A DNA stretch of 64,000 bases from Gluconobacter kondonii. Lineage in GTDB: Bacteria > Pseudomonadota > Alphaproteobacteria > Acetobacterales > Acetobacteraceae. The notes below the pieces were generated by a model. It did not search any database. It was not told the origin of the DNA and worked only from the letters and a program-made list of their open reading frames with translations. Of this stretch, positions 986 to 23,182 are shown one piece after another. Made by a program: the position numbers and the translations under genes. The stretch is from NCBI RefSeq assembly GCF_002723995.1, contig NZ_BEWP01000002.1, positions 1 through 64,000 of the forward strand. Reading direction: 5' to 3'. Each line of letters begins with the position of its first letter. Positions within the stretch are counted from its first letter, which is position 1.

Positions 986-1287
986 TATATTCATATTAAG
1001 AAAATTTCTCCGACCAAAAACCAATGAAGTATTCCGTTAATTATACATGCGTGATGTGATCTGAGTTTATCTGTTTACTATGAAAATTCTCTGTACTGTG
1101 GAATAAATATTGTATTTCTGTATTTTTCAAAACCAAACTGGATCAAACATAAAACACCAGAATCAGATTTATTTTGGGGAATGGTTCCGCCAAAGTGAGC
1201 CAGAGACCTGTCAGACAGGTTGACGTCAGCATGTCCTTTTAACGTCTCAGCCAGAATAGTTTTTCTCTGTCTTGATGGGGTGCGAGC
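986..1287 (+). other. Intergenic junction between AT-rich tract and T3SS locus
   Basis: About 300 bases without a convincing gene. Composition changes here from AT-rich to the GC-rich background, so it marks the edge of the acquired tract. The only element I can support is the tts-box-like repeat at 1214-1230, which serves the gene starting at 1288. An open frame on the minus strand (1078-1419) overlaps that gene and has no family features. Confidence 0.5.
1214..1230 (+). promoter_or_regulatory. tts-box-like direct repeat (box 1)
   Basis: GACAG-GTTGAC-GTCAG-C: two RWCAG units 11 bp apart, ending 57 bp before the ATG at 1288. It matches the five-site consensus RWCAGGNTNNNRWCAGM found only at T3SS-associated promoters here. 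It is oriented towards the NolX-like gene and is a likely binding site of the TtsI-like regulator at 17002-17703. Confidence 0.7.
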
Positions 1288-2529
1288 ATGTTGATTGGAA
1301 CTATCGCTTCGGGGGGCACTGAAGGGAGCGCTCAGATCGCTGGTGGGGAACTGGAACAGGCTGGTACGGATAGTACCAAGACGGGAAAGAAAGCCGACAA
1401 GAACGCTGCTTATAATCAAAATCTGGAACAGGGAATGGATACGCTTCAGCAGAGCGATCCTGCCTTGTTTTCAAAGATCATGACAGCCGGAGAGTCCGGA
1501 AACGGCAACAGTCTCGTCGAGGATGAGCTTCAGGCTTACAAGGAAGGCGATCTGACCAAAAATCAGGCGATTGCGGCGATTTCCGGTGCCCAGTCACTTG
1601 CAAACAATAATGGCGGCGGGCGGATCAGCAAGAAAGAGCGAGCCGAGGCGAAAGAGGTTCTGGGAGGAAGCTATATCAAAGGCGGCCAGACCCGTGCCGG
1701 TCATGCGATCCTCAAATTCCTCGAAGATACGTCCCCGATTGCGCAGATCGTGAAGGGTATCAAATCCACGACGTCTGACGGTCCGGGTAAGGAAACGATC
1801 CTTCAGGCAGGAAGTGGTGCTTTGTCGACCGCGACACAGCAGGCCATGTCTGATCTGGAGCAGACAGATCCTTCTCTGGCCCAGCAGTTTTCGACCGATG
1901 CCAGCAAGAAGAATGGCAATGCCATGGCGCAGGATCTGGAAGTTGCTGGTGAGGAGGCGGCCAGTTCTGGCGGGGCATTCTCCGATGCGGATGCTGCGGC
2001 ACTGGGAAGCCAGATCGGACAGATGGGGGCAGGCAAGGTCTCGAAGAAGGACGCTGCGGAGTTCGAGGCAGAATTCGGTGAAGGCACGATTGATCGTGGC
2101 AGCACGAAGGCCGCCAAAGGATGGGACAAGTTTGAGACGGGGATAGGTAACTTTCTGTCTTCTATGGTCTCTCCGCTGACGGACGGTGTCGGCATGATCG
2201 ACCAGTTTGCCAAGGGCAACAAAAGTCAGGGTTTGAAAGATCTGGGCGGAATGTTCGAAGGCGTTGCCAGCGATGCAGCGCTGCTTTTTGTCCCCGAGAT
2301 CGCGCCGGAAGTTGATGGGGCTGAAGCTGCTGCCCGCGCGGCTGATGGTGTTGCGCAGAGTGCTGAAAAGGGAGCATCTTCGATTGGCGATATTCTCAAA
2401 AGTGCTGCCGGGAAAGTCGGCAACGGACTTATGACTGGTCTGGATACAGCCGATTATGGCTATAATCTTTACAGCATGGGCCAGGGCGACCCAATTGTGC
2501 AGCAGCACAAAAATACAGGCGAAGCCTGA
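1288..2529 (+). CDS. HrpF/NolX-like secreted protein, putative type III translocon component
   Basis: 413 residues, no cysteine seen, rich in Ala, Gly, Ser and Gln, with no N-terminal signal peptide. An imperfect internal duplication covers about residues 50-137 and 187-275. Both copies begin with a L(Q/E)Q(S/T)DP(A/S)L segment and contain G(R/K)(I/V)SKK followed by acidic helices, at a constant offset of about 137 residues. The C-terminal third carries moderately hydrophobic stretches near 285-300 and 320-340. Two N-terminal repeats plus C-terminal hydrophobic segments is the layout of Xanthomonas HrpF and rhizobial NolX, which are secreted translocon proteins. I infer a translocator role from this layout, from box 1 upstream, and from its position beside an Rhc-type system; sequence homology is not proven. 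The start is the ATG after box 1. Confidence 0.55.
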   Translation: MLIGTIASGGTEGSAQIAGGELEQAGTDSTKTGKKADKNAAYNQNLEQGMDTLQQSDPALFSKIMTAGESGNGNSLVEDELQAYKEGDLTKNQAIAAISGAQSLANNNGGGRISKKERAEAKEVLGGSYIKGGQTRAGHAILKFLEDTSPIAQIVKGIKSTTSDGPGKETILQAGSGALSTATQQAMSDLEQTDPSLAQQFSTDASKKNGNAMAQDLEVAGEEAASSGGAFSDADAAALGSQIGQMGAGKVSKKDAAEFEAEFGEGTIDRGSTKAAKGWDKFETGIGNFLSSMVSPLTDGVGMIDQFAKGNKSQGLKDLGGMFEGVASDAALLFVPEIAPEVDGAEAAARAADGVAQSAEKGASSIGDILKSAAGKVGNGLMTGLDTADYGYNLYSMGQGDPIVQQHKNTGEA

Positions 2530-2542
2530 GAGAGACCGTGTT

Positions 2543-2566
2543 ACGCCACTTTGGTGGCGTTTCGGT
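2543..2566 (+). terminator. Hairpin after the NolX-like gene
   Basis: ACGCCAC-TTTG-GTGGCGT perfect 7-bp stem starting 14 bases after the stop codon, followed by TTCGGTTT. The tail is only partly T-rich, so termination strength is uncertain. Confidence 0.5.
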
Positions 2567-2585
2567 TTGATGTTCTGAAATCAGA

Positions 2586-2623
2586 AGCCATGAGCCGGAG
2601 CAATATCGCCCCGGTTCATGGCT
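2586..2623. terminator. Long inverted repeat between convergent genes
   Basis: AGCCATGAGCCGG pairs with CCGGTTCATGGCT (13 bp with one G-U) around a 12-base loop, between the convergent genes ending at 2529 and 2642. The placement suits a bidirectional transcription barrier. There is no clean T-tract on either side. Confidence 0.45.
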
Positions 2624-2641
2624 GTTTCGCCTGATGCCGGA

Positions 2642-3583
2642 TCAGGCGTCTCCGAAATCTGCCGTGTAATGCTGGCTTGTATCCTGTGCCATAGTCATCG
2701 GATTGGAACTGGTCGCGTTACGATCGTCATCCGGATGGATATAGGCGTTCCCCGTGCCCAGTTTTGACTCCATATAGGCTCCGCCGTCTTTCATGTCCTG
2801 CGTTGAGCCGTCATACCATCCGGTTACGGTCGCACGCCCACCTGCGTCCTTCGTGATGGCGTTGGAAGGGGCATCGTTAGCAATGCTCTGGCTATCGCCT
2901 GCGGTTTTGCCGTTGCCGTCAGAGACCTTGATGGAGGCGTTGCGTCCGTCGATGTAGCTGACATCGTCGTTATTGACGCCCTTGGCATCCGCGTAGAATT
3001 CCAGACGGCTGGCGGTGGACTGGAAATTGCCGGACGAGTCTGCTTCGGCGTCATAGCCGCCTTGGCCATTCTCGTATTTCAGCGTGCCGGTCTGGCCGGG
3101 TTTGAGGTCGATCTCGGCTGTAGGCTGGGTCGTGGAGCCGCCATTGAGAAACTGACCGATCTTTTCGTCGTGATTGCTGGTATTTGTGATGGTGGTCGTG
3201 TTGGGGCCGTCTCCTGCACTGGTGCTGGACGTGCCAGACGTTGTGGCAGCAGGGCTGGACGCGTCACTCGAAGCCGGGGTTGTGGGCGACGTAGATTCTG
3301 CGGTCGGTGTCGCAGAGGCGGAAGAGCCAGCAGCCGGAGAGATAGCCGGGCTTGTCGTATCGGAGCCGGAGTTTGTGGAGCCTTCCTGGTTCCCCTGCTT
3401 CAACAGAGCCATAAGTTCCTGAAAGACTTCCGCAAGTTTGGCCTCTTCCTGCGAGTTCTGGGTCCCAGTGCTCTGGCCTGTGCCGCTTGCGCTTCCGGTC
3501 CCGGAAGACAGGCTTCCGGACTGCATTGCGGCCAGCAGTTCCTGGATCAGGCTCTGGGTGTCGGGCGTGATTGAAGTGCTCAT
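2642..3583 (-). CDS. Harpin-like cysteine-free secreted protein with a C-terminal beta-rich domain
   Basis: 313 residues, no cysteine seen. The N-terminal 65 residues are amphipathic, with LIQELLAAM and VFQELMALLKQ helices split by a Ser/Gly/Thr linker. Residues about 66-135 are low-complexity Ser/Thr/Pro/Ala. Residues about 138-313 look folded and beta-rich (for example GTLKYENG, RLEFYADAKGVNN, YIDGRNASIKVSDG). An acidic, glycine-rich, Cys-free protein with QELLxxM-type helices resembles harpins and helper proteins secreted by type III systems. I do not recognise the C-terminal domain. It has its own upstream box 2 (3668-3684) and is transcribed separately from sctU, which ends at 3701. The substrate role is inferred. 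Confidence 0.6.
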   Translation of the reverse strand: MSTSITPDTQSLIQELLAAMQSGSLSSGTGSASGTGQSTGTQNSQEEAKLAEVFQELMALLKQGNQEGSTNSGSDTTSPAISPAAGSSASATPTAESTSPTTPASSDASSPAATTSGTSSTSAGDGPNTTTITNTSNHDEKIGQFLNGGSTTQPTAEIDLKPGQTGTLKYENGQGGYDAEADSSGNFQSTASRLEFYADAKGVNNDDVSYIDGRNASIKVSDGNGKTAGDSQSIANDAPSNAITKDAGGRATVTGWYDGSTQDMKDGGAYMESKLGTGNAYIHPDDDRNATSSNPMTMAQDTSQHYTADFGDA

Positions 3584-3667
3584 GTCGTCCTCATCGTGCG
3601 GCTGAAAGCGGGCATGGCAAACGGATTCATGGCCGCGTTTTTCTGCACGGTCTGTTTACGATGCAAA

Positions 3668-3684
3668 GCTGACGTCAGCCTGAT
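3668..3684 (-). promoter_or_regulatory. tts-box-like direct repeat (box 2)
   Basis: Read on the minus strand: ATCAG-GCTGAC-GTCAG-C, with RWCAG units 11 bp apart, about 85 bp before the start of the harpin-like gene at 3583. It sits just past the stop codon of sctU (3701), which argues that the harpin-like gene has its own promoter. Confidence 0.7.
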
Positions 3685-3700: not shown

Positions 3701-4744
3701 TTACGAGGGAAGGTTCTGAAGAATACGCGCAACCGGCTGAAAAAATTCAGGCGTGATTGTTGTTCCGGGTTTGAATTTTTCCGCAAGGTTTCGCGCAAGT
3801 TCATAATCCCAGACGACAGGAATACGGCTCTCCTGAGCGATCGTGCGATAGATCTCCGCCTGTTCTCCATGCGCCCGACAGACAATGCGCGGAAGAGGCG
3901 TCTGCGGCGGTTGATAGCGCAGGCCGATGGCAACAGCGTTTCCACAAATCATGACGCTGGCCTGCTTCGGGCCAAGCGGTGCGGTATTGCGACGGGCCTG
4001 GCTCTGGAGGCGCCGCTGCTGGCGCTTGATGAGCGGATTGCCCTGACTTTCCTTGCGTTCGTTCTTCGCTTCGGTGGGCGTCATCCGCATTTCCTTGAGG
4101 AACATCTGCCGCTGGATCAGCAGGTCGATCACGCCGGCAACCATGTAGAAAACACAGGCGGCACTGAAGATCGGCATCAGCAGCGTGAAGAGAATGCGGG
4201 GCAGTTCGGTAATTCCGGCTTCCGGCACACGGACGAGGCCGCCAATCGCACCATGAATAATGAGCGCCAGTGTTCCGCCGAAAAACAGAACTTTGACCAG
4301 TGACATGCCCAGATCCACGAAAGTCCGGGCTTTAAAGAGATTTGCGAACCCCGAAACCGGATTGATCTTCTCAAACTTCGGCATCACAGGATCGAGTGCG
4401 AAAACAAACCCGCCATTGGTCAGCAGCCTGACGAGAATGCCCGTGACGACGGCCAGAGCGAGAGGAGTCAGGGCGTCTTCAAAGCAGATGGTCCTCAGAG
4501 CCTGACCCACGCTTGCGATCCCGGATCTGAAATCCATCGTAAGCGCGTTCCCGACCGCATCCATCATCGCTTGCAGATGGATGGCAATCGCGTTTCGCCG
4601 CAGGAGAAGCCAGCCGATCAGGATGATGGTCACCACTCCGGACTGAAGATCCGGAGCCTTGGCGATATGGCCTTTGCGACGTTCATCCGCGAGCTTCTTG
4701 GCAGATGCCGGGAGAGATTTTTCTTCGCTACTGCTTCCGCTCAT
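3701..4744 (-). CDS. sctU: SctU (RhcU/FlhB family) export-gate switch protein, NPTH motif missing
   Basis: Inner-membrane component of the export apparatus. In the family it self-cleaves at NPTH and helps switch secretion from early to late substrates. It has 347 residues, the usual length. The N-terminal KKLADERRKGHIAKAPDL is the canonical cytosolic entry segment, followed by four hydrophobic segments (about 35-55, 90-110, 148-170, 186-210), a basic linker, and the cytosolic domain with the expected LRY and late PVVWDYELAR motifs. Where NPTH should precede the AVALRY-like strand, the sequence is CGNA (residues 267-270, bases 3935-3946), so autocleavage by the known Asn-Pro mechanism is not expected. 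The start overlaps the sctT stop by 4 bp (ATGA). Last gene of the sctI-U operon. Confidence 0.93.
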   Translation of the reverse strand: MSGSSSEEKSLPASAKKLADERRKGHIAKAPDLQSGVVTIILIGWLLLRRNAIAIHLQAMMDAVGNALTMDFRSGIASVGQALRTICFEDALTPLALAVVTGILVRLLTNGGFVFALDPVMPKFEKINPVSGFANLFKARTFVDLGMSLVKVLFFGGTLALIIHGAIGGLVRVPEAGITELPRILFTLLMPIFSAACVFYMVAGVIDLLIQRQMFLKEMRMTPTEAKNERKESQGNPLIKRQQRRLQSQARRNTAPLGPKQASVMICGNAVAIGLRYQPPQTPLPRIVCRAHGEQAEIYRTIAQESRIPVVWDYELARNLAEKFKPGTTITPEFFQPVARILQNLPS

Positions 4745-5547
4745 GGCTTCAGCAGTTGGTGCATGGTGCCAAGAACATCCCGCGAGGCGACAAGATCATG
4801 CCTCATGTATGACACGAGCCACGCGCAGTAGCCGAACATCATCAGGATGAAGACCAGATTGCGCAGGTTCGGGGCGAGATCATAGAGGTGCAGTTTCGGG
4901 ATGGCGCGCATCAGGAGAATAACGCTCGCCTCACACAGCAGCATCGCCAGCATGACGGGAGCGCCGATTGAAAGGCTCACAGTTTCCAACCGGTCAAGCA
5001 GACCCAGCAGAACCATGCCGAACCCCGGCTGCGGCGCCAGCGCCAGAGCGAGCGGAGGCCAGAGTGTTTCGGACGACAGCAGCGTATCGGCCAGAAGATT
5101 GAGCCCCCCTGACAGGACAAACAGCGTCGTGACGGCAAGGGCAAAAAAACCGGCGGTTGTGGACTCCTGATTGCCGCTCCCCGGATCTTCGGCCTGTCCC
5201 TGCGTTGCGCTGCGCTGGGTGTCGAGCAGTTCGCCCGCGCACTGTACGCCCCAGATCGGCAGACCGATGAGCAAACCGATGATGACGCCGATCACCATTT
5301 CCTTGGCCCCGAGCATACCGAGCGCCATCAGGGAGCGGGGATCGGTGAGCAGTCCCGCATGGATCATGGGGGTTGCGGGAATAGCGAGCGCGAAGGCAAT
5401 AGCCCCCGTGATGGGGCCGCCAAGCTGCATGCGTGTAAAGACCGGCAACACGATGGCCGCCCCCGCCGGGCGGCTCATCGCCAACGCGATGGAGCTCAGC
5501 CAGGGCATCATCTGTTGTAGGACAGTAATGGCGTCAGTGGCAGGCAC
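4741..5547 (-). CDS. sctT: SctT (RhcT) export apparatus protein
   Basis: 268-residue polytopic membrane protein, SctT/SpaR/FliR family, which forms the export pore with SctR and SctS. Family features are the N-terminal MMPWLSSIALAMSRPAGAA segment, the GPITGAIAFALA helix, KEMVIGVIIGLLIGLPIW, and the GELLDTQRSA motif with the adjacent cytosolic loop. It is followed by SctU with a 4-bp overlap and preceded by SctS with a 3-bp gap, so it is translationally coupled within the R-S-T-U block. Confidence 0.95.
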   Translation of the reverse strand: MPATDAITVLQQMMPWLSSIALAMSRPAGAAIVLPVFTRMQLGGPITGAIAFALAIPATPMIHAGLLTDPRSLMALGMLGAKEMVIGVIIGLLIGLPIWGVQCAGELLDTQRSATQGQAEDPGSGNQESTTAGFFALAVTTLFVLSGGLNLLADTLLSSETLWPPLALALAPQPGFGMVLLGLLDRLETVSLSIGAPVMLAMLLCEASVILLMRAIPKLHLYDLAPNLRNLVFILMMFGYCAWLVSYMRHDLVASRDVLGTMHQLLKP

Positions 5548-5550
5548 GGC

Positions 5551-5823
5551 TCAGAAGCGCGTCATGGCCGGGAAATCGGTCAGGACGTGTTCGGTAAAGG
5601 CCAGCAGAGGCGGAAAGAGTGTCGAGGCCATAAGCACCAGTGTCGCGCAGACGGCGACGACCTTGAAGGTCAGCGGCATTGTCTGGTCTTGAAGCTGAGT
5701 TACAGCCTGCAAAAGCCCGATCAGAAGCCCGACCACCAGCGCGATCGCCAGCGGCGGTCCCGCGATTGAGGCGAACAGGAAAAGCGCGGAAGAGAGTTCC
5801 TGCGTAAGGGCCGCATCATCCAC
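5551..5823 (-). CDS. sctS: SctS (RhcS) export apparatus protein
   Basis: 90 residues with two transmembrane hairpins, the standard size for SctS/FliQ. The hydrophobic segment around PPLAIALVVGLLIGLLQAVTQ and the following QDQTMPLTFKVVAV are the conserved FliQ-family core. It lies between sctR (38 bp upstream) and sctT (3 bp downstream). It packs with SctR and SctT as the pore of the export gate. Confidence 0.95.
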   Translation of the reverse strand: MDDAALTQELSSALFLFASIAGPPLAIALVVGLLIGLLQAVTQLQDQTMPLTFKVVAVCATLVLMASTLFPPLLAFTEHVLTDFPAMTRF

Positions 5824-5861
5824 AGGCAGTGTTCTTCCGCAGATGCGCGCGAAGTGGCGGC

Positions 5862-6512
5862 CTACGCATAGCTCATCACCAGTCCGTGCAGCAGGCGTGT
5901 CCAGCCGCTGGCCAGAACGAACAGCAGCAGCTTGAGCGGAACCGAAATCGTGTTGGGCTGCACCTGAGACAGGCCCATCGCGATCAGGATTGTGGTCACG
6001 ACGAGGTCAATGGTGATGAACGGCAGATAGATCAGGAAGCCGATTTCAAACGCACGTTTGAGCTCTCCCGTCAGGAAGGACGGCAGAAGGATCGGGAGAG
6101 ATTCCGGCGTCAGGCTGTCGCGCATGTCCTCGGGCCACAGGCGCTGGGTGGCGTTCATGAAGAAGTTGCGTTCGGGCGCCTGTGTGAAGCGGAGCAGATG
6201 CTGGGCGACAGGCGCCTGTACGCGTTCATAGGCATCCACATAATCCGTCAGTGTCTCGTATTTCTGGTCGCTCTCCATGGCCGCCTTGTAGATGTCGTGG
6301 CCGAGAGGCGCGGAAATGAAGAGCGTGAGGATCAGCGAAATCGCATAAAGCACGATATTCGGCGGAGACTGCTGGATGCCGAGCGCGGTGCGCAGCAGGA
6401 ACAGGACGACCGAGATTTTCACGAACGACGTAGTGGTGATGACCGCGAGGATCAGGACGCCGAACCCAAGGGTCAGGACAAGGGCCGTGACGAGATTGGT
6501 CGAGCCGATCAT
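5862..6512 (-). CDS. sctR: SctR (RhcR) export apparatus protein
   Basis: 216 residues, SctR/FliP family. Features are TTTSFVKISVVLFLLRTALG near the N terminus (FxKx3V/LxxLRxALG signature), the QQSPPNIVLYAISL segment, the large periplasmic loop, and the C-terminal LPSFLTGELKRAFEIGFLIYLPF and DLVVTTILIAMGL motifs. The start overlaps the sctQ stop by 4 bp. SctR is the nucleating pore subunit of the export gate. Confidence 0.96.
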   Translation of the reverse strand: MIGSTNLVTALVLTLGFGVLILAVITTTSFVKISVVLFLLRTALGIQQSPPNIVLYAISLILTLFISAPLGHDIYKAAMESDQKYETLTDYVDAYERVQAPVAQHLLRFTQAPERNFFMNATQRLWPEDMRDSLTPESLPILLPSFLTGELKRAFEIGFLIYLPFITIDLVVTTILIAMGLSQVQPNTISVPLKLLLFVLASGWTRLLHGLVMSYA

Positions 6513-7558
6513 GCGGTGATGATCCGCGTTACCCGGATGGCGACGGAGGACCCGAGATCCACGAGTTCGCCTTCGCCAATGCGGCGGCCATTGGCCATGA
6601 TCGACACGGAACGCTCCGTGAGCGCGCCGATATCAATCACATGTCCTTCTCCGATCGTCCTCAGCTCAGCCAGCGAAACCGGCATCCGCGCCAGTTCAAA
6701 AGTCAGGGGGATCTGAAGCTGTTCGATGGCGGAGGCTTCGACTGTCGTGGACTGGTGAGGGTCGGTCGCGGAGGACGGAGGTGTTTCAGTCATGCTATTC
6801 CAATCTGCTGGCCAAATCCGGGCGAGAGGCAGAAACCCGCCCTCAAAAACAATCCTGCTGCCGTCATGCCGGACCGCTGCGCCCAGCATCTCGCCCGCAA
6901 CAATCACATGTCGGACTTGCGCTGCCGTCCCGAGGACCAGTCCGAAACCGGGGCCGAGCGCCATGAGGTCTTCGGGCGAGAGCAGAACGCTGCCGATCCT
7001 CAAAGATAACATCACCGGCGGATCGGGAAAGCGGCGCACAAGCGACGGTGCGAGAGGGTGCAGCACAGGCATTAATGCCGGAGGCAGACGCAGCAGTCCG
7101 CAAAAGCTGTCCGCTGTGTCAAAACGGGCTTCAAATCCGATTTCGACAAACGCGGGCATGTGGGATGTGGCCTGCTGCGCCGGTTCGATCCGCGTGAACC
7201 GGATCGGTGCAATTATCGCTGCCTCCAGCGTCGTCAGGCCCTGATCCAGCAACATCTCAAGCAGCAGCAGGGCTGCCGGCGCTTCCATCGGGGCGCGAGG
7301 CTTCGGCTCCGCCAGCGAAACCAGCCTCTGAAGGGTCTCGTGAGGGAGAACACATTGCCCCTCCCTATCATCGATCCGAAAACAGATCGCACTCCACTGT
7401 GCTGGTAAGAGGATCGGCGGCGTAAAGCGCACCGAAAGCCGCTCTTCACCTACAAACAGCGCAAAGTCTTGCCGCCCGAGCAGACCTGCTGCCGAAGCGT
7501 CATAGCCCAGCGGCCTCGGTGTAAGGCGATGTATCGCGCGTGATAGAGACAGCGTCAT
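6509..7558 (-). CDS. sctQ: SctQ (RhcQ) cytoplasmic C-ring/sorting-platform protein
   Basis: 349 residues. The C-terminal roughly 70 residues (LQIPLTFELARMPVSLAELR, then GHVIDIGALTERSVSIMANG and GEGELVDLGSSVAIRVTRII) form a typical SpoA domain. The N-terminal part is divergent, as usual. SctQ forms the cytosolic sorting platform with SctK and SctL under the ATPase. It overlaps sctO by 4 bp and sctR by 4 bp. Whether an internal start makes a short SpoA-only product, as in some systems, cannot be seen with confidence. Confidence 0.9.
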   Translation of the reverse strand: MTLSLSRAIHRLTPRPLGYDASAAGLLGRQDFALFVGEERLSVRFTPPILLPAQWSAICFRIDDREGQCVLPHETLQRLVSLAEPKPRAPMEAPAALLLLEMLLDQGLTTLEAAIIAPIRFTRIEPAQQATSHMPAFVEIGFEARFDTADSFCGLLRLPPALMPVLHPLAPSLVRRFPDPPVMLSLRIGSVLLSPEDLMALGPGFGLVLGTAAQVRHVIVAGEMLGAAVRHDGSRIVFEGGFLPLARIWPADWNSMTETPPSSATDPHQSTTVEASAIEQLQIPLTFELARMPVSLAELRTIGEGHVIDIGALTERSVSIMANGRRIGEGELVDLGSSVAIRVTRIITA

Positions 7559-8100
7559 GGAGCGTTGAACCGCGACGTTGTGCTGCGTTGGCGGGTGAGC
7601 CGTCCGCTGCTCTGGCGCATCATGGCAAGTTCCGCGATGTCCTGTTCCTCGTGCTGTTCCTGCGCCGTGCGGCGTTCTGTCAGAACGCGCTCCAGCAGGT
7701 CGCGCGCCTGTTTTTCGCGCTGTTCGTACTGCATCAGGAGGCGACGTGCTGCGGCGACGAGCTGCCGAGCTTTTTCGACGTCCCGTTCCGCTTGCGCGAT
7801 CCCGTCTTTCAGGCGTTTTTCGTGACGGGCGAGCTCTTCAATATGCTCATGATCCCGACGCAGGAGCACGGCGCTGACCGGCGCATTCTGTGCGCGTGCA
7901 GCGATCTCCGTCTGAACCCCAAGCTGATGTGCTTGATGGTCGGACAGGATCTGGCTGGCGTGGTTGAAACGAGCCAGACGCTGATCGACCTGCGATGTTG
8001 CCGCCGACAGAAGTTGACGCGCCTCTGCGGCACGGCGCTGGCGCAGCGTCACAAGCTGTCCCGCCGCCTGCGGGCTCAGGCGCAAAGACGGTTCAGCCAT
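7555..8100 (-). CDS. sctO: SctO (FliJ/YscO-like) stalk protein
   Basis: 181 residues, almost entirely charged heptad-type helices (Arg/Glu/Gln/Ala-rich coiled coil), in the conserved position between the ATPase gene sctN and sctQ. YscO/FliJ proteins enter the ATPase hexamer as a central stalk and link it to SctV. The N terminus overlaps the 3' end of sctN by 25 bp. Primary sequence conservation is low in this family, so the call rests on coiled-coil character, size and synteny (y4yJ position in rhizobia). Confidence 0.8.
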
Positions 8101-12328: not shown

Positions 12329-12376
12329 TTTCCTGCAACAGGCCCGGACCTATCGGGATCAAGCCTAGGGACGAAA

Positions 12377-12393
12377 GCTGATCTGAACCTGAC
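12377..12393 (-). promoter_or_regulatory. tts-box-like direct repeat (box 3) of the apparatus operon
   Basis: Read on the minus strand: GTCAG-GTTCAG-ATCAG-C, with units 11 bp apart, ending 49 bp before the TTG start of sctI. It lies in the divergent gap between sctI and rhcC1 (ATG 12475), so it could influence both genes, but its orientation points to the sctI-U operon. Confidence 0.7.
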
Positions 12394-12474
12394 CTTCAAA
12401 CGAGTTGTCCGAAAGTGCCTTCAGGCGTTCGGCAAGAATTGTCGGGCCTCTGCGCGCGGTCTATAGAAGAACAG

Positions 12475-14869: not shown

Positions 14870-15549
14870 GACGCATCAGTCTGCGTCGTGGTGTTTGTGG
14901 ATGTTGCCGGACTGTCGCTTCCAGTCGTCGCAGACGAACTGGCACCCCCCATGCTTCCACCGCCGATGGCGGACGGGACATTCGACGTCGCAGACGTTCT
15001 GTTCTGCGAAGTGCGATCCATCCCCGCCTCCCACAATTCCACAACGCGCCCAAACCGCGCGCCATTGGCCGGTTGCAGATGGGCAGGCTCCAGCAGATCC
15101 CCCGGATTGGCAATTTCCGCGGCGAGCGCTGCGGCCTGAAGGCATTGTCCAAGGGGATAAAGGCTGTCGGACGTGTCTCCGGTCCAGGATGGGCGGACGG
15201 CCTGACGACAATCGGGTTGGGCTACGACATACGCCCTGAGAACGAGTGTGTTGGACGCATCGTGGACCACGCGGATCCGCGCCGGTTCCACACCGGCACG
15301 GACGAGCGCGTGCGTCACCAGAGCCGTAATCTGCGGGTCCGCACCGTTGATCGTGGCGTGAACAGCGCGCGGATCGCCCAGTTTGGTGAGCGCGGCATCG
15401 AGCGCACGGTCTGCGTCGGCGGAATCAAGAGGAATGCGATGCTGGTTGACGCCCAGAAGAAGCGGCGGCGGAGGGCCAGACGAACGCGTGCCGCTGAAGG
15501 TGCATCCGGCCAGCGACAGTGCGAGAAGGGCGAGGAGCGCGTGTCTCAT
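14830..15549 (-). CDS. CpaD-like outer-membrane lipoprotein (y4xK position)
   Basis: 239 residues. The lipoprotein signal ends in LAGC (Cys 16), and a conserved CpaD-like region covers roughly residues 40-175: ADRALDAALTKLGDPRAVHA, GVEPARIRVVHDASN, DCRQAVRPSWTGD and the GDLLEPAHLQPANGARFGRVV block near the end. The C-terminal 60 residues are Ser/Thr-rich and disordered. CpaD/TadB-type lipoproteins accompany the CpaC secretin in Tad pili. Rhizobial T3SS loci have an analogous lipoprotein gene after rhcC2 (recalled from family knowledge). The start overlaps the rhcC2 stop by 4 bp, so the two are co-translated. Confidence 0.8.
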   Translation of the reverse strand: MRHALLALLALSLAGCTFSGTRSSGPPPPLLLGVNQHRIPLDSADADRALDAALTKLGDPRAVHATINGADPQITALVTHALVRAGVEPARIRVVHDASNTLVLRAYVVAQPDCRQAVRPSWTGDTSDSLYPLGQCLQAAALAAEIANPGDLLEPAHLQPANGARFGRVVELWEAGMDRTSQNRTSATSNVPSAIGGGSMGGASSSATTGSDSPATSTNTTTQTDASQPPVADEAASTP

Positions 15550-16985
15550 TCGTAAAGAAACCCGGCCGCACCCTGAAGATGAGGCATGCGTGTGGGATCG
15601 GGCGCATCTATTGCGGCGGCCGCCGAGCGTCGGAGCAGCAGCGCCTCGATGGCGGATGTCGGACGGATATAGTCGGTCGGCAGCGCCGGAACACGATCGG
15701 ATGGATGAACGATATAGGCCGTGACGACGATCAGCAGTTCGCTCTCGTTGCGCTGGAACGACGTGGAGCGAAACAGCGATCCAAGTACCGGAATATCCGC
15801 CAGCCCCGGCACCTTGGAGATGGTATTGCTGGCATCGTTTGAAATCAGACCGCCGATAGCAAAACTCTGACCCGATGCAAGCTGAATGGTCGTATCAGCC
15901 CGGTTGGTGCGGATGGCGGGAACGACGCTGCTGCCGGAAATGGAATACGCCCCTTCCGACGCTTCCGTGGAAACGGAACTGACTTCCGGTGCGACATGCA
16001 TGCTGATGGTGCCGTCAGACAGGACCGTTGGCGTGAAATCGACGCTGACGCCATAATTTTTGTAGGTAATCCCGACAGTGCCCAGACCCTGCGGGATCGG
16101 AACGGGGAACTGCCCGCCGGACAGGAACTTGGCTGTCTCGCCCGACATGGTGGTGAGGTTGGGTTCTGCCAGCATGGTCGCAAGCCCCTCCGTCGCCATG
16201 GCGTCCAGTGTGCCTGTGACGGACGAACTCCCGCTCGTATAGCTTCCCGAAAGCGCATTGCTTGCGCTCGACAGGGCCTTGATGGCGCTGGGAACACCAC
16301 TCAGTCCGCCCGTAGCGGCACCGATGGCGAAAGAGCCCACACCGTTGAAAACTGTCGTCCAGTTAAAACCCAGATCCTGCGAGAGCTGCCGTTGCACTTC
16401 CGCAACGCGCACGACAAGATTGACCTGAACCGGCTCGCTGATGGTCAGGCGGTTAATCAGTTTCGCACCACTCCCGCCATATTGCCGGGCGAGAGCCTCC
16501 AGATGCGCGGCGGCTTTGGCATCCGGAACAGAGCCGGACAGGACGACACCTTCAGGCGACATTTGCACCTGAACATTCCGGCCCCCTTCCTTGGCGATCA
16601 TGGTACGCATCGCGTCCTTGTTGAACGTGACCGTCACGTCGCCGGAAATCATTTTCTGGCCGCTCTGGTCCAGCACGATAAGTGTCGTATGGCCGGGTTT
16701 TTTGCCGAAGATGAACAGGCCGTCATTATCGGTATATTGCACGTCCATAACCGTCGGATCGGCAATCATGACATTGCCTGCCGCGCGGGGAAGCTGGATC
16801 AGCTGCGCTCCTCCGACCGATAGCGTCATGGACCCACCGTGGCGGGCAGACTGCACCTGCGCGGCTGCGTTTTGCGGAATGGCGCCGACGCATACGGCGC
16901 CGAAGAGCAGAAAAGATCCCTGCAATGCGCCTGTGCGGGCGGCCTGCCAGAACCGTATGCGGTGTGTTGAACGGCCTGAAATCAT
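15546..16985 (-). CDS. rhcC2: RhcC2: Tad/CpaC-type secretin serving the type III system
   Basis: 479 residues from the ATG at 16985 (a TTG at 17042 would overlap the regulator gene). An N-terminal signal ending near NAAAQ precedes a pilus-secretin N-domain (LIQLPRAAGNVMIADPTVMD, GLFIFGKKPGHTTLIVLD), then a BON-like part (MSPEGVVLSGSVPDAKAAAH). The secretin core contains EVQRQLSQDLGFNW, LAEPNLTTMSGETAKFLSGG, and VPGLADIPVLGSLFRSTSFQ with the closing ESELLIVVTAYIV. These are the hallmarks of CpaC/RcpA rather than YscC. With RhcC1 at 12475 it would make a two-protein outer-membrane ring. It lies 16 bp after the TtsI-like gene. Confidence 0.9.
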   Translation of the reverse strand: MISGRSTHRIRFWQAARTGALQGSFLLFGAVCVGAIPQNAAAQVQSARHGGSMTLSVGGAQLIQLPRAAGNVMIADPTVMDVQYTDNDGLFIFGKKPGHTTLIVLDQSGQKMISGDVTVTFNKDAMRTMIAKEGGRNVQVQMSPEGVVLSGSVPDAKAAAHLEALARQYGGSGAKLINRLTISEPVQVNLVVRVAEVQRQLSQDLGFNWTTVFNGVGSFAIGAATGGLSGVPSAIKALSSASNALSGSYTSGSSSVTGTLDAMATEGLATMLAEPNLTTMSGETAKFLSGGQFPVPIPQGLGTVGITYKNYGVSVDFTPTVLSDGTISMHVAPEVSSVSTEASEGAYSISGSSVVPAIRTNRADTTIQLASGQSFAIGGLISNDASNTISKVPGLADIPVLGSLFRSTSFQRNESELLIVVTAYIVHPSDRVPALPTDYIRPTSAIEALLLRRSAAAAIDAPDPTRMPHLQGAAGFLYE

Positions 16986-17001
16986 ACTGAAAAACTGTTC
17001 A

Positions 17002-17703
17002 TCATGCCGTAAGTCCCATGTCCTTATCGAGCCGTGCCGCAAGACGATAACCCACGCCGCGCACGGATTCGATCGTCACGAGGGAGCGTGCCTTTGCAAG
17101 CTGCCGCCGAATGCGGCTGACACGCACCTCAAGGGAGTTCGGGCAGTACTCGGCCTGTGCGCCGTAAACGTCATGCTCAAGTCCGGCGCGGGGCACGACG
17201 TGACCACGGCGGCGCATCAGTGATTCCAGAATGAGCGTCTCTCGGCGCTGGAGCGTGAGTTCGAGATTACCGACCCGCACTTCACGTGTAGCGGTGCAGA
17301 GGGTGAGGTCACTGAACTGATGCTGCTCTGCCGACCGGATGCGCGGGCGACGCATGATAGTGCGAACACGTGCGACCAGTTCGCGGGGGCTCACATCGCG
17401 CGTCACGCTGTCATCCGCGCCCGCTTCAAGGGCCGCGATCCGCTCGTCCTGACAATTGGCGATGAGCACGAGGAATTCGTCGCCGTCATGTCGCCGGCAG
17501 CGACAGCGCGCCTGCCACCAGACGCTATAGACGCCATCGCCACTTGTGGAATCCAGCAGGACAAGACTGTAATTCGAAGCCGTCAGGGCCTCGTTGGCAT
17601 CGTCGAGCGTCGTGAAAACATCCGCGCCGAAACCGGCGCTCTGAAGGTTTTTGGCAAGGCTGTCGGCATACCCGCTATCGGGGGACATGATCATCAGTCT
17701 CAT
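17002..17703 (-). CDS. ttsI: TtsI-like OmpR-family response regulator with an eroded receiver
   Basis: 233 residues. The ATG at 17703 has a GGAGA ribosome site; an upstream open frame to 17820 lacks these features. Receiver domain about 1-118, with the putative phospho-acceptor Asp51 in LVLLDS. The acidic pocket is reduced to one residue (SPD at 7-9), the usual Lys is Arg (VTRDVSPRELVARV), and the region after Asp51 is unusual. The C-terminal winged helix is typical (LTLQRRETLILESLMRR, SLEVRVSRIRRQLAKA, SVRGVGYRLAARL). No sensor kinase is nearby. It sits between sctV and rhcC2, matching the rhizobial ttsI-rhcC2 order. TtsI activates T3SS genes through tts boxes; the five repeats found here are its likely targets. 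Confidence 0.72.
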   Translation of the reverse strand: MRLMIMSPDSGYADSLAKNLQSAGFGADVFTTLDDANEALTASNYSLVLLDSTSGDGVYSVWWQARCRCRRHDGDEFLVLIANCQDERIAALEAGADDSVTRDVSPRELVARVRTIMRRPRIRSAEQHQFSDLTLCTATREVRVGNLELTLQRRETLILESLMRRRGHVVPRAGLEHDVYGAQAEYCPNSLEVRVSRIRRQLAKARSLVTIESVRGVGYRLAARLDKDMGLTA

Positions 17704-17734: not shown

Positions 17735-19876
17735 TCATTGCTGTCTGGCAATGGCTGCATCGGCCCCGAACACGTCCGTTCCGATGGACGCGATGGGATG
17801 GACCGGGAATTCGTCGGCAAGGTCCTGATACGAGAGAACGGGGTTGTCGAAGCCGTTCCGGATCAGGAATCCCCTGACGAAGCGTCGCGTGTCGACCGAA
17901 CACACGATGATGGGTTTGGTGGTTTCCGCTTCCGCACCGGATTTCCCGGGGGCGTTGGCCAGACGCTCGCGGACGGCCTCCAGAAGTTTTTGGGACGCAT
18001 CCACTTCCAGCGCCAGAAACGAACCGGCTGGTGTTTCGCGGACGGACTGTCGCAGAAGCTGGTCCGTTGCCTGCGACAGAACGATCGCGGGGATCGCCCT
18101 GTGGTTCGTCGCATAACGGTGGCAGATCTGACGGGACAGGGCATTGCGGACATGTTCGGCCAGCATCGGCACCTTGTTTTCGGTCTCGCCCCACTCCACG
18201 AGCGTTTCCAAAATAAGGCGCATGTTACGCAGCGACACATCCTCTTCCACGAGACGCCTGAGAACTTCGGCGAGACGCTGGACGGGCACGAGTTTCGTGG
18301 CCTCGCGCGTCAGATCGGCATATTGTGCTTCCACGCGCTGGACGATCTGCCGCGTTTCCTGAAGCCCAAGGAAACGCCCGGCATGGCGACGCAACGCAGC
18401 ACGGAAGCGGAAAGCAATGATCCCGGCATGATCATGAAACCCTATCCCCGCCGCCCGGAGCCGCCCTTCGCTGACGGAGGGAACCCAGAGGGACGGATCA
18501 TTGGTCAGCAGAGCAACGCCTTCCTCGCCATCTATTCCGGCAAGGTCCAGATGAACCGGATCGTCATGCAGCAGAAGGAAGTCCTTGCGGAGTTCATGCT
18601 CCTCGATGGGAACGTCTTCCAGATCGATCGAAAATCGCAAATCCCCGCTGTCGTCGCGCTGTCGGAGCGTGGGGGGCGGGAACTGGAAGCCTAGATCGTT
18701 GCCGATTTCCATGCTGACGCGCGCCAGAAGACGGGTCAGACGTCCCTGATCCAGAGTGGCGTTCAGCTTCTGGCTGAGAGTAATCGCCATCAGGGGGGTG
18801 AAGTTTTCCTGAAGTGTCGTGCTGGCGTGCCCCGCCGGTGAGGCGGCGGAGAAGACATCGTCCTGCGCGCCGGGATGCGTTTCGGCGGAGCGTCGGAACA
18901 CGCGGTTCGTCAGGCCCTTCCAGTCCGGGCGACTGCCGCAGAAGAAAATTGCCGCCAGAATGAGGAAGACGGGTTTAGGAAAACCGGGGATCAGCCCCAT
19001 CGCCAGAAGCACGACCGACGCCACGCGCAGGGCGCTGCTGTTTGCGGTAAGCTGGGTCGCCATATCGCGGCCCAGATCCATGCCATGACCGCCCACGCGC
19101 GTGACCACGACGGCCGCCGTGATGGACAGCAGAAGCGCCGGAATCTGCGAAATCAGAGCATCGCCAACCGTCAGCAGCGTGTAGGTCTGCATGGCTTGAC
19201 CGATCGCCATGCCATGCTGCGCCACACCAATGCCGATCCCGCCCACCAGATTGACCACGATGATGATCAGCCCGGCAATCGCATCGCCCTTCACGAATTT
19301 CAGGGCGCCATCCATGGCACCATGCAGGGCGCTTTCGCTGGCCAGTTCCGTGCGACGGCGTCTAGCCTCGATCGCGTCGATATCGCCCGACCGCAGATCG
19401 CTGTCGATGCTCATCTGCTTGCCGGGCATGGCATCGAGCGTAAAGCGCGCCCCCACTTCGGCAACACGTTCGGTGCCTTTTGTGACGACGATGAACTGGA
19501 CCGTGGTGACGATGGCGAAGACCACCAGACCGACGACGATGTTTCCGCCAATGACGAATTCGCCGAACGTTTCAACAATCGCCCCGGCATCCGCCGTCGT
19601 GAGGATCAGCCGCGTGACCGTGACTTCAAGCGCCAGCCGGAACACGGTCGAAACGAGGATCATGCCGGGAAGCGCTGTCAGATCCAGCGGCGACCGCAGA
19701 TAGACCGCCACCATCAGAAGCAGGACCGACAGGCTGAGATTACATCCGATCAGCACGTCTGCGAAGGCTGCAGGCAGCGGCATGATGAGCATGCCAATCG
19801 TCAGGACCAGCACCAGAACGAGGGCCAGATCTTGCCGCTGGCTCATGACCCGGAAAAAGGGCGTGAGATGCTTCAT
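17735..19876 (-). CDS. sctV: SctV (RhcV) major export gate protein
   Basis: 713 residues, SctV/FlhA family, full length. The N-terminal membrane domain has about eight helices and the conserved cytosolic loop (QFIVVTKGTERVAEVGARFT, MPGKQMSIDSDLRSG, GDAIAGLIIIVVNLVGGIGI). The C-terminal nonameric ring domain runs from about residue 340 to the end and includes VQRVEAQYADLTREATKLVP and LRRLVEEDVSLRNMRLILE. It receives substrate-chaperone complexes before the SctRST pore. The start overlaps the upstream TPR gene by 4 bp; the TtsI-like gene follows after 31 bp. Confidence 0.97.
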   Translation of the reverse strand: MKHLTPFFRVMSQRQDLALVLVLVLTIGMLIMPLPAAFADVLIGCNLSLSVLLLMVAVYLRSPLDLTALPGMILVSTVFRLALEVTVTRLILTTADAGAIVETFGEFVIGGNIVVGLVVFAIVTTVQFIVVTKGTERVAEVGARFTLDAMPGKQMSIDSDLRSGDIDAIEARRRRTELASESALHGAMDGALKFVKGDAIAGLIIIVVNLVGGIGIGVAQHGMAIGQAMQTYTLLTVGDALISQIPALLLSITAAVVVTRVGGHGMDLGRDMATQLTANSSALRVASVVLLAMGLIPGFPKPVFLILAAIFFCGSRPDWKGLTNRVFRRSAETHPGAQDDVFSAASPAGHASTTLQENFTPLMAITLSQKLNATLDQGRLTRLLARVSMEIGNDLGFQFPPPTLRQRDDSGDLRFSIDLEDVPIEEHELRKDFLLLHDDPVHLDLAGIDGEEGVALLTNDPSLWVPSVSEGRLRAAGIGFHDHAGIIAFRFRAALRRHAGRFLGLQETRQIVQRVEAQYADLTREATKLVPVQRLAEVLRRLVEEDVSLRNMRLILETLVEWGETENKVPMLAEHVRNALSRQICHRYATNHRAIPAIVLSQATDQLLRQSVRETPAGSFLALEVDASQKLLEAVRERLANAPGKSGAEAETTKPIIVCSVDTRRFVRGFLIRNGFDNPVLSYQDLADEFPVHPIASIGTDVFGADAAIARQQ

Positions 19877-20196: not shown

Positions 20197-20198
20197 GC

Positions 20199-20615: not shown

Positions 20616-21518
20616 TCAGTACTGAAAGTTAACAGGCCGTAAACCCTTGTGCATTATTACGGTATGTTTCCGTATTTCTGAAAGAGACAATCCTGTGACA
20701 ATTTCAGTGCCGACCCGGTAGCGCTGCGAATGCACGACAATATTGGGATTTTTTCCGCTCCAGACGGCCTGAATGGGCACATCAACCGGCGCAGACTCTG
20801 GCGCAACTGAGACGTTCGAAACCCAGACCGCCTGCGTTCCGAAGGACGCATCGAACCATTTTTCGACATCCCGAAATGTTTTCATTTCCTGAGCCGAGAG
20901 ACTTCCATCGATGATGATAACGCCGGAAGAGGCACTGACCTTGAGTTCAGGAAGATGATTTTGCGTTAGCTGCTGCACAACCAGACGTCCAAGCTCGGCA
21001 TCGCTGACCGTCTGCTGGGTGGAAGCTGTTTCCAGATCGGGCGTGCGGGAAGGAGAGACGCTGGCCGTTTTGTGCGCGGGCGTTGCGGAGCGTGACAGCG
21101 CCTGCATTACGACGAGCATCAGAACAATCGCCATCCCCCCGACGATCATAAATGTGGGATTGGTTTTTCGTTTTGTATCAGGAATATCTTCGGTTGTAGA
21201 GGTAAGCGTTTCCGGCGGAGCCGCGATGGTGCCATCAGAACCCAGATGAAGGGAAACAGTGCCAAGCAGGAGTGTTGCGGGACCTGTGACGGTCGTGCTC
21301 TCACCAGACGGAAGCGCCACCGTATTCACTACGACATCCGGTGCAAGGGCCTGTAAAATATAGGTACTACCAGACTGTTGCCTGATCGAAAGATGTTGTG
21401 CCGCGATGCCGTCATCAAGCAGCGCCATGGTCGCATCCGGGCCTGAGCCGATAATGACAGGCTCTGTGCCGAACGTCATGACGGCATCGCTGTGCAACCC
21501 GTTCTGAACAACCAGCAT
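20616..21518 (-). CDS. sctD: SctD inner-membrane ring protein
   Basis: 300 residues. The N-terminal FHA-like cytosolic domain (about 1-95: GTEPVIIGSGPDATMALLDD, and AAQHLSIRQQSG) is linked to one transmembrane helix (about 122-140) and a periplasmic ring domain (LGRLVVQQLTQNHLPELKVS, GVIIIDGSLSAQEMKTFRDV). This is the YscD/PrgH architecture, here with a short periplasmic part. SctD forms the outer of the two inner-membrane rings with SctJ. It lies between the small needle-like gene and the X-Y-V block, all on the minus strand. Confidence 0.85.
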   Translation of the reverse strand: MLVVQNGLHSDAVMTFGTEPVIIGSGPDATMALLDDGIAAQHLSIRQQSGSTYILQALAPDVVVNTVALPSGESTTVTGPATLLLGTVSLHLGSDGTIAAPPETLTSTTEDIPDTKRKTNPTFMIVGGMAIVLMLVVMQALSRSATPAHKTASVSPSRTPDLETASTQQTVSDAELGRLVVQQLTQNHLPELKVSASSGVIIIDGSLSAQEMKTFRDVEKWFDASFGTQAVWVSNVSVAPESAPVDVPIQAVWSGKNPNIVVHSQRYRVGTEIVTGLSLSEIRKHTVIMHKGLRPVNFQY

Positions 21519-21626: not shown

Positions 21627-21815
21627 TCAGTCCTTCGTGAAGGCAGACTTCGCGTTGCTTTCCATCGTCTGGGCAAAGTCGTTTGCAAACGTCTGGGCGT
21701 TGGAGATTTCAGACATCTGTTCCTGCTTCTGCAGGTTCTGGTCTTCCATGGCTTCGGACTCCTGCATGATCTGCTGCATGGTTGAGTCGCTGCTGGCAGA
21801 GATGGAACCGCTCAT
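21627..21815 (-). CDS. Small helical protein, needle/pilus (SctF/NopA-like) candidate
   Basis: 62 residues from the ATG at 21815, which is preceded by GGAG at 7 bp; the ATG at 21827 (66 residues) lacks a good ribosome site and contains this GGAG. No cysteine. The polar N terminus is followed by a continuous amphipathic helical region (MQQIMQESEAMEDQNLQKQE, ISNAQTFANDFAQTMESNAK). Size, helicity and location just before sctD fit a needle or pilus subunit (rhizobial NopA, Ysc-type SctF), a component not otherwise found in this locus. No diagnostic motif was seen, so this is inferred from elimination and context. Confidence 0.5.
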   Translation of the reverse strand: MSGSISASSDSTMQQIMQESEAMEDQNLQKQEQMSEISNAQTFANDFAQTMESNAKSAFTKD

Positions 21816-21943
21816 TTTGTTCTCCATGACATTGTTAGTGACTAAAAACAGCGCCGTTTTCTCTCAGCGCCATTCGGAAATTCACATGAACTCCCGAAAA
21901 CCGTGACGTTCGTAGCGAACGCCTGAATACGCTCTGCACCCTC

Positions 21944-21970
21944 CCCGCACCCCGAAGGCGCGCGGGGCAG
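21944..21970 (-). promoter_or_regulatory. GC-rich hairpin, possible attenuator or RNA-stability element
   Basis: On the minus strand, CCCCGC pairs with GCGGGG, with further pairing around a CTTCGG-type turn, beginning about 12 bases after the stop codon of the harpin-like gene. No T-tract follows. It could protect the upstream mRNA or reduce read-through into the needle/sctD block. Confidence 0.35.
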
Positions 21971-21981
21971 AATGCCGGGCG

Positions 21982-22662
21982 TCAACCCAGTGCAGACTTC
22001 AGTTCAGACGCAGCGGAGCTGCCGTTGAACGTGCCGGACTGAATTTCGCTGGCCAGCATCTTCGCAACATCGGCAAGGCTGTTGTTGCCAGCGTTCGAGG
22101 CTTCGCGAGCCAGAGCATTGAGATTGTTGAACTCATCCGAGCCGGACTTACCGGACTGCAGGGCATCCGCAATCGTGTCGACGTTGTTGCTCAGCGCATC
22201 GACGCTGTTGCCCTGAAGAGCCTGCTTGATAGCATTGCTGCTGCCACCCTGGTCGTAGGTACCATCCGACAGGCTGCGGCCAATATTGCCCGCAACGGAA
22301 GAGTCGAGGCCGTTACCCTGCTGGCTGGCTTCCGACGAAACAGCCTGAGCATACTGCTGGAGCGTATTGCCGTTCGTGCCGTTCATGTCGACGAGCGTCT
22401 TCAGCGTTTTCATGTCATCGCTGAGATTGCCGGTCAGGGACAGACCCGTGTTTCCAACGGGTGTAGGTGTCGAAGAACCGGTACCGGACGACCCCGTGCC
22501 CGAAGCGTTGCCGCTTGCTTCCATTTCCTGCAGGAGCTGGATCAGGGCCTGCTCCATTTCCTGTGCCGTTTCCGTGCTCAGGTTCTGGCCGGTGACTGAA
22601 GTGTTGAGGTCGCCCGTGCTCATCGGGCTAAATGTTGTGTTGTAACTGTCAACCGAGGACAT
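21982..22662 (-). CDS. Harpin-like cysteine-free secreted protein
   Basis: 226 residues from the ATG at 22662, chosen because GGAG lies 7 bp upstream; an ATG at 22734 is in frame but has no ribosome site. No cysteine seen, rich in Ser, Gly, Asn, Ala and Gln. An early helix (AQEMEQALIQLLQEMEAS) is followed by a Gly/Ser/Thr linker and helical segments with repeated ALQ(S/G) and NALA motifs. Small acidic, Gly/Ser-rich, Cys-free proteins of this kind are typical harpins or helper substrates. It is the first gene after box 5 and may head the block that runs through sctD-sctV-ttsI-rhcC2. Confidence 0.62.
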   Translation of the reverse strand: MSSVDSYNTTFSPMSTGDLNTSVTGQNLSTETAQEMEQALIQLLQEMEASGNASGTGSSGTGSSTPTPVGNTGLSLTGNLSDDMKTLKTLVDMNGTNGNTLQQYAQAVSSEASQQGNGLDSSVAGNIGRSLSDGTYDQGGSSNAIKQALQGNSVDALSNNVDTIADALQSGKSGSDEFNNLNALAREASNAGNNSLADVAKMLASEIQSGTFNGSSAASELKSALG

Positions 22663-23182
22663 GCGGCTCTCCACATCAGAAAATCTGTGATCAGAGAGCA
22701 AGATATCGCTTACCCTCTTACCCGAACGTTCCATCAGATGCGGCTGCAGTTCTTATGGTCGTTTCGGTCTGACGAAAGAGATATTTGAGCAGTCTGACCA
22801 AAACCTGACGTAAATTTCTTCAGAATTAATTTCTGGGAAAAACCGGAAAATGTTCACTAAATTGCAATCAAAAAGCTACGCGGGCTTAAAAATCCGGAAG
22901 AGCGTGTTCCTGATACAGGAACGATCTGGCTGTTCCGTGAACACCTGATGACGCCAATCAGTGTTGTTGAAGTTCCGGAAAACGATTTTTAATATCTTTC
23001 AAAAAGGACTGATAAAAGAAATTTTTGAGATTTAAGAATTTATTTTCAATTAAAACGGTAATTTACTAAAAAATTTGGCTTTTCAGAAGAATTTTTACTC
23101 ACACTCAGATGTAACTTCCTCATCTTCAGAAAGTCGCATATCTTTCCGGCACATTGTTTCTATTTCGAAAAGCCGACACACC
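22663..23182. other. Long intergenic region upstream of the harpin-like gene
   Basis: About 520 bases between divergently oriented genes. It contains box 5 and an extra single GTCAG unit (minus strand, about 22769-22773). The stretch 22850-23080 is noticeably AT-rich with no gene I can support. The plus-strand membrane protein starts at the ATG at 23183; the open frame upstream to a TTG at 23075 is probably not translated. Confidence 0.5.
22793..22809 (-). promoter_or_regulatory. tts-box-like direct repeat (box 5)
   Basis: Read on the minus strand: GTCAG-GTTTTG-GTCAG-A, the most perfect repeat of the set, with units 11 bp apart, about 130 bp before the ATG at 22662. It is the only box upstream of the needle-candidate/sctD/sctV/ttsI/rhcC2 block, so it may drive that block too and give autoregulation of the regulator. 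Confidence 0.72.

Follow-up and report, generated by a model that had tools for sequence, protein, structure and literature searches.

The 64,000-nucleotide stretch of DNA analyzed here (contig NZ_BEWP01000002.1 of Gluconobacter kondonii, positions 1 to 64,000, called the window below) harbors a gene cluster encoding a type III secretion system (T3SS), in which five short direct repeats precede T3SS-linked genes. These five sites are very probably tts boxes, that is, operators of the TtsI-like protein encoded at 17002-17703, which would switch on a Rhc-I-like T3SS and its first substrates. Together, they look like the signature of a rhizobial-type T3SS regulon of the tts-box kind that is conserved among acetic acid bacteria, where the surprise lies in the host and the wiring, and not in the code.

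Five repeats in the gaps of a T3SS gene cluster

The sites were originally reported as matches to the 17-bp pattern RWCAGGNTNNNRWCAGM, located at 1214(+), 3668(-), 12377(-), 13818(-), and 22793(-). All the matches listed in this preliminary description were recovered on the strands given, and the window contains no others. The mean number of matches obtained in 100 dinucleotide shuffles was 0.03 (maximum 1), and when one mismatch was allowed, nine matches were present in the window versus 1.33 expected from the shuffles; since RWCAGGNTNNNRWCAGM was built post hoc from the sites themselves, these shuffle statistics alone overstate the case. The one-mismatch site 10963(-) was rejected as a box: it lies inside the gene occupying the sctK position and lacks a TA at the right place. 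Throughout the genome (3,269,446 bases), RWCAGGNTNNNRWCAGM occurs 12 times, five of which are within the 22-kb cluster, versus three occurrences of a backwards control pattern, and four of the seven matches beyond the cluster fall within open frames longer than 200 codons. The five sites in the window are all intergenic, although the gaps account for only 1662 of the 21975 bases of the cluster.

In keeping with the preliminary description, all five sites show the 11-bp spacing of the half-sites, and a TA is present at each site exactly 10 bases past the second half-site. This element, of which no use had been made previously, has a frequency of 0.033 in the cluster gaps. Box 1, consisting like the others of two half-sites plus the TA (1214..1241, + strand), is situated upstream of the gene at 1288-2529; box 2 (3657..3684, - strand) upstream of the harpin-like gene at 2642-3583; box 3 (12366..12393, - strand) upstream of the gene in the nolB/sctI position and the sctJ-to-sctU row; box 4 (13807..13834, - strand) upstream of the gene at 13180-13716, which encodes a cysteine-free protein; and box 5 (22782..22809, - strand) upstream of a second harpin-like gene and the sctF-sctD-sctV-ttsI-secretin row. 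The distance from the site to the start codon amounts to 57, 84, 66, and 101 bases at 1214, 3684, 12393, and 13834, respectively, and to 58 or 130 bases at 22809, since the harpin-like gene has two in-frame ATGs (22734 and 22662).

Comparison with rhizobial tts boxes

A count matrix was built from 15 rhizobial boxes, namely all the matches of a pattern derived from the published consensus in four loci (L061-L064), which are the annotated clusters of S. fredii NGR234, Bosea vestrisii, Bradyrhizobium guangxiense, and Mesorhizobium amorphae. A second NGR234 stretch (L065) lay outside this box scan, and three stretches of pNGR234a turned out to be without a T3SS. When the 127,938 positions of the window were ranked using this matrix, the first four places were occupied by 12393(-), 22809(-), 1214(+), and 3684(-), in that order, and a gap in the scores separated rank 4 from rank 5. 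The fifth site, 13834(-), ranked 107-114 depending on the pseudocount and eighth among the gap positions. Three of the 15 training boxes are located inside annotated genes, one of them antisense in a long gene and the other two just within the annotated start of nopP. With the 12-box matrix obtained by removing these three, 12393(-) ranked first, 3684(-) second, 1214(+) 3-5, and 22809(-) 5-6. This more cautious restatement did not alter the odds in favor of tts boxes, since neither the TA nor the boxes at orthologous genes nor the scan of 26 genomes described below depends on the matrix. In PMC3009519, the final bases of the tts consensus published for NGR234 and B. japonicum are tA. The layout GTCAG-N6-G..AG-N10-TA was found in the window, where four sites stand out by their matrix rank and all five carry the TA.

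The preliminary description took the G at position 6 and the form of the second half-site to be signs of a diverged regulatory code. This idea fails, because neither feature is foreign to rhizobial boxes, some of which have this G and some a perfect second repeat: the G was found in 3 of the 15, an RWCAG second half-site in 6 (versus five of the five Gluconobacter sites in both cases), and the nolB box of B. guangxiense shows both features. The TA is present in 9 of the 15. The second half-site is more regular in the Gluconobacter sites than in most of the rhizobial boxes. Judging from these sequences, the Gluconobacter form lies at one extreme of the variation among rhizobial boxes and is no new code.

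Conservation of the boxes in the Acetobacteraceae

All five boxes are kept in G. cadivus, G. cerevisiae, G. albidus, G. wancherniae, and G. roseus. Over the six Gluconobacter species, all 50 half-site positions (summed over the five promoters) are invariant, as are 123 of the 140 positions of the 28-base box, 146 of the 300 in the 60 bases upstream, and 125 of the 165 in the 33 bases downstream. Five diverged Acetobacteraceae clusters (G051, G183, G082, G100, and G158; about 130 kb) were scanned with the relaxed pattern RNCAGNNTNNNRNCAGN10TA. Each of the 11 matches obtained sits upstream of an orthologue of one of the five box-linked genes or of sctF. Six of these sites are also matched by RWCAGGNTNNNRWCAGM, which does not include the TA, and the TA is present in all six.

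A box orthologous to box 1 stands before the orthologue of the 1288 gene in five Gluconobacter species, G082, G100, and A. thailandicus, and beyond the 130-kb stretches, a G183 box precedes a counterpart of this gene (63% identity). Boxes corresponding to box 2 were found before the orthologue of the 2642 gene in G082 and A. thailandicus and, again beyond these stretches, before its counterparts in G051 and G183 (62-67% identity). As regards box 3, nolB promoter boxes are present in NGR234, Bosea, and B. guangxiense. For box 4, genes that resemble the 13180 gene in short segments only (blastp E 2e-8 to 1e-9) are preceded by boxes in A. thailandicus and, outside the 130-kb stretches, in G082 and G100 (E 1e-9 in these two). 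Boxes also precede the orthologue of the harpin-like gene (box 5) in G051, G183, and G100; in G051, this gene has an in-frame ATG about 130 bases downstream of the box. The earlier proposal of tts-box-type elements located at promoters of T3SS-linked genes is upheld by the rhizobial matrix ranks, the TA, and these orthologous boxes.

Distribution in Gluconobacter genomes and candidate remote targets

The pattern RNCAGGNTNNNRNCAGN10TA was used to scan 26 Gluconobacter genomes, seven of which carry sctV, and yielded 86 matches versus 26 with the reversed control. Thirty-one of the 86 are located in T3SS clusters; of the remainder, 19 belong to other regions of the seven sctV-positive genomes and 36 to the 19 sctV-negative genomes. 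The latter two figures indicate that the extended pattern is at background level outside the T3SS and enriched only at the cluster; an equal abundance at random positions, which the preliminary description had named as fatal to its proposal, was not what was observed. A profile, R1, made from 16 boxes including those in the window, was used to score the best 150 first-look candidates in each genome. At E<=0.01, all 30 matches in the 26 genomes were cluster boxes and none occurred elsewhere among these candidates; only this absence elsewhere is informative, because R1 holds the window sites and near-copies score by construction.

The suggestion that the code might serve to find remote effectors was borne out in part, in that one candidate emerged in the genome of origin (G000). 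The sixth-best R1 match there (contig 7, 189767, E 0.054) is separated by 49 bases from the start codon (ATG) of a gene encoding a cysteine-free protein of 283 residues, P0002 (contig 7, 189836-190687, corresponding to L080:1137-1988), which is flanked by a NAD-kinase-like gene and a TonB-receptor gene. However, 6 of the 19 T3SS-negative genomes contain one match each with this score or better, so that P0002 is only a candidate remote target, with a score no better than background. Four of these six matches span the same R1 model positions, and that in G121 is overlain by a 245-codon open frame. No relatives of P0002 were found in Pfam, NCBIfam, PDB, or plasmids at the thresholds used, and among 26 genomes of the genus and 397 of the family, it was found only in its own genome. 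Its C-terminal piece gave one chance-level match in PDB (E 0.69). One stretch is reminiscent of a motif of some ADP-ribosyltransferases, but the Pfam, NCBIfam, and PDB searches gave no such match.

Two further genes were noted in relatives. On contig 67 of G082 (L089:783-1673), off the T3SS contig, a 296-residue cysteine-free protein with no match in Pfam or NCBIfam is encoded behind a strong box (E 7.7e-4). On contig 7 of A. thailandicus (L088:1572-2648), near the cluster, a gene encoding a Cupin_8/JmjC-type protein (Pfam 4.4e-32) is preceded by a weaker box with a shifted TA.

The TtsI-like regulator

The presence in the same cluster of a TtsI-like regulator of the OmpR family, previously announced, was confirmed. 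The product of the gene at 17002..17703 (- strand) has an OmpR-type DNA-binding domain (Pfam Trans_reg_C, E 2e-15), a receiver domain scoring under the Pfam cut-off, and 35% identity with the TtsI of NGR234 over 205 columns. Its closest named relatives are those of G. cadivus, G. cerevisiae, G. albidus, G. wancherniae, and G. roseus (98-99%), followed by that of Acetobacter thailandicus (65%), and the nearest solved structures by sequence are those of BasR (best E 1.5e-23). The genomic setting is also that of TtsI: the gene adjoins secretin and CpaD-type genes within the T3SS cluster, and the row ttsI-secretin-CpaD is common to the window, NGR234, and M. amorphae. Among the order-level matches to the regulator with less than 41% identity, the 19 loci L012-L030 (flanks of at most 1.5 kb) and L050 showed no secretin or sctV neighbor, and the only CpaD match beside them was a weak one, at E 0.89.

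In a tree of 39 regulators (L014, L021, L029, and the own-genome L072 and L075 having been left out), the 11 T3SS regulators of the Acetobacteraceae form one clade and the four rhizobial TtsI another, each at 100/100. When the two sets were constrained to form a joint clade, the log-likelihood was 1.31 higher and the constraint was not rejected (p-AU 0.536); since the joint-clade tree is only slightly better, a common origin of the two sets is no more than allowed.

At the phospho-acceptor column, the window regulator has D, whereas those of G051 and G100 have G, that of G082 has T, and three of the four rhizobial TtsI have E, which suggests that phosphorylation may not be required throughout the TtsI family.

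Wiring of the proposed regulon

The start of ttsI lies 31 bp behind sctV, with which it shares the strand, within the row headed by box 5, and the circuit is therefore probably self-feeding. A coding-strand box heads the sctD-V-ttsI row in 9 of 11 clusters, that of G082 being cut by the end of the contig. Terminator-like sites are not enriched between 13000 and 23200 (11 versus 9.9 in shuffles). Feedback of TtsI on its own gene may not be unique to acetic acid bacteria, because M. amorphae also has a tts-box match, situated about 600 bases before ttsI. According to PMC3973906, the rhizobial ttsI is located behind a nod box. A change of input from flavonoid-driven to feedback seems likely.

Proposed mechanism and alternative explanations

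We propose that a head-to-tail dimer of the TtsI-like protein binds the two GTCAG-type half-sites 11 bp apart, replacing a -35 element. The bound dimer would then recruit RNA polymerase to a -10 element (TAnnnT) starting 10 bases downstream, in a process of class II activation; the T at the sixth position of this -10 was present in 9 of 16 sites. Class II activation of this sort occurs at pho and PmrA-type promoters. The boxes together would turn on the whole Rhc-I-like T3SS and its first substrates, with little or no need for phosphorylation of the regulator, and with ttsI inside the box-5 row, the circuit would probably feed back on itself.

Several observations weigh against this proposal. 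The 12-box matrix narrows the margin of the sites, since other positions intermingle with them at ranks 3-6, and 13834(-) ranks only 102-134 across the rhizobial matrices. Letter-by-letter scoring placed the sites 1214, 3684, 12393, 13834, and 22809 at ranks 7, 2, 21, 71, and 1 with the NGR234 consensus, and at ranks 2, 11, 10, 27, and 1 with that of B. japonicum, in both cases with ties; this scoring (ranks 1-71) was dropped as too blunt and the count matrix was used instead. The relaxed pattern and profile R1 were shaped by the sites themselves. As to the regulator, its best NCBIfam model, far below the cut-off, is PmrA, the tree does not settle the relation between the two sets of TtsI, and the window regulator retains the D of the phospho-acceptor column, a residue found in 8 of the 11 regulators from the Acetobacteraceae, so that phosphorylation may still play a role. 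As to the wiring, G158 has no coding-strand box before the sctD-V-ttsI row, and there is a weak terminator-like site between sctF and sctD.

The boxes might be real operators bound by another regulator of the OmpR/PmrA family, the TtsI-like protein being a mere neighbor. At E<=1e-5, the regulator has 10 other matches in the genome, and its low-scoring receiver domain and PmrA-like model match would fit this explanation; however, boxes at E<=0.01 occurred in the 26 Gluconobacter genomes only alongside sctV and the regulator, and binding of TtsI to the rhizobial box is reported in PMC8780523. Co-occurrence cannot separate this explanation from binding by the TtsI-like protein, because box, T3SS, and regulator travel together; all in all, we regard another regulator as unlikely. 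Even less probable, judging from the form of the sites, is a two-block promoter recognized by a special sigma factor: a fixed GTCAG and a fixed TA at a constant spacing would be compatible with it, but the half-site is repeated at an interval of 11 bp, a form also seen among the rhizobial boxes. That the pattern, built from the sites as it was, simply gathers five unrelated gap sites is hardly credible in view of the rhizobial matrix, the TA, the boxes before orthologous genes, and the scan of 26 genomes.

Organization of the T3SS gene cluster

The T3SS is, by its gene order, of the rhizobial, Rhc-I-like layout: the order nolB-J-K-L-N-O-Q-R-S-T-U and a divergent split secretin were found, with K and O identified by position and weak matches. 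Box 3 is followed by the gene in the nolB/sctI position (11774..12310, - strand), which is assigned by synteny and whose product shows a weak match to the NolB profile (E 0.0048, probability 7.3%), and then by the sctJ-K-L-N-O-Q-R-S-T-U row (3701..11769, - strand). The listed sctN frame (8076-9920) overlaps sctL, and some 180 of its residues precede the ATPase match; the true start is probably further in. In the divergent direction, the gene at 12415..13098 (+ strand), in the RhcC1/NolW position, encodes the N-terminal part of a secretin (Pfam Secretin_N 6e-05, below cut-off; 29% identity to NGR234 NolW) and has no box of its own, as in rhizobia (PMC3973906).

Behind box 5, the harpin-like gene (21982..22662, - strand; the name is that of the preliminary description), the product of which is cysteine-free and matched no relevant NCBIfam family nor any other family, is followed on the same strand by a small needle-like gene of 62 amino acids assigned to sctF by position (21627..21815), the counterparts of which are 43-85% identical in G051, G183, G082, G100, and G158; by sctD (20616..21518; Pfam Y4YQ_C 3.1e-14 and YscD domains); and by sctV (17735..19876; NCBIfam TIGR01399 2.1e-237, above cut-off). 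Directly after ttsI come the secretin gene in the RhcC2 position (15546..17042; Pfam Secretin 8.5e-46; 40% identity to NGR234), whose start is uncertain since this frame overlaps ttsI, and, third in the ttsI-secretin-CpaD row, the gene encoding the CpaD-type lipoprotein (14830..15549; Pfam 9.5e-08).

The first genes behind the boxes presumably encode T3SS substrates. The cysteine-free protein behind box 1 (1288..2529, + strand) had been labeled NolX-like, a label which holds only weakly (39-column profile match, E 0.019, probability 2.4%). The product of the gene behind box 2 (2642..3583, - strand), likewise called harpin-like in the preliminary description, and the candidate T3SS substrate encoded behind box 4 (13180..13716, - strand) are also cysteine-free. 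At the borders of the cluster, genes for an AI-2E-type transporter and a LysR-type regulator occur beyond box 5 (23075-25217), and positions 1-1200 at the start of the contig, beside the cluster, are AT-rich by eye, in contrast to the remainder of the window (59% G+C).

Significance and relation to known systems

The regulatory code described for nodule bacteria is extended here to Gluconobacter and its Acetobacter relatives. That Gluconobacter living in association with fruit and vinegar should have the same kind of on-switch as root-nodule bacteria points to a shared regulatory circuit. The boxes predict which genes belong to the T3SS and offer a means of listing candidate substrates, and hence a handle for finding the proteins that Gluconobacter may inject. 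The question as to the original use of the TtsI circuit also becomes testable. One could tentatively imagine, at somewhat less than even odds, that TtsI and the tts box form an older alphaproteobacterial T3SS circuit, which would be self-amplifying in acetic acid bacteria, probably without any flavonoid or nod-box input, and would drive uncharacterized effectors, some of them encoded outside the cluster. Among the papers listed by a search of the open-access literature, no title or beginning of an abstract dealt with tts boxes or with a regulon of the T3SS in acetic acid bacteria, and no priority is claimed.

In comparison with the tts box of the Rhc-I T3SS of S. fredii NGR234, Bradyrhizobium, and Mesorhizobium, the Gluconobacter sites show the same GTCAG repeat 11 bp apart with a TA 10 bases downstream, and the box likewise precedes the nolB operon and not the divergent NolW-type gene. 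They differ in the constancy of the RWCAG second half and of the G at position 6, and the position of ttsI directly behind sctV in the window differs from that in NGR234, where ttsI forms a separate unit. Promoters of the PmrA/BasR and PhoB type, which are controlled by other members of the OmpR family, also carry direct repeats with an 11-bp spacing adjacent to the -10, but with a half-site that differs from the present one, and the Gluconobacter regulator is distinguished from those of these promoters by its degenerate receiver domain.

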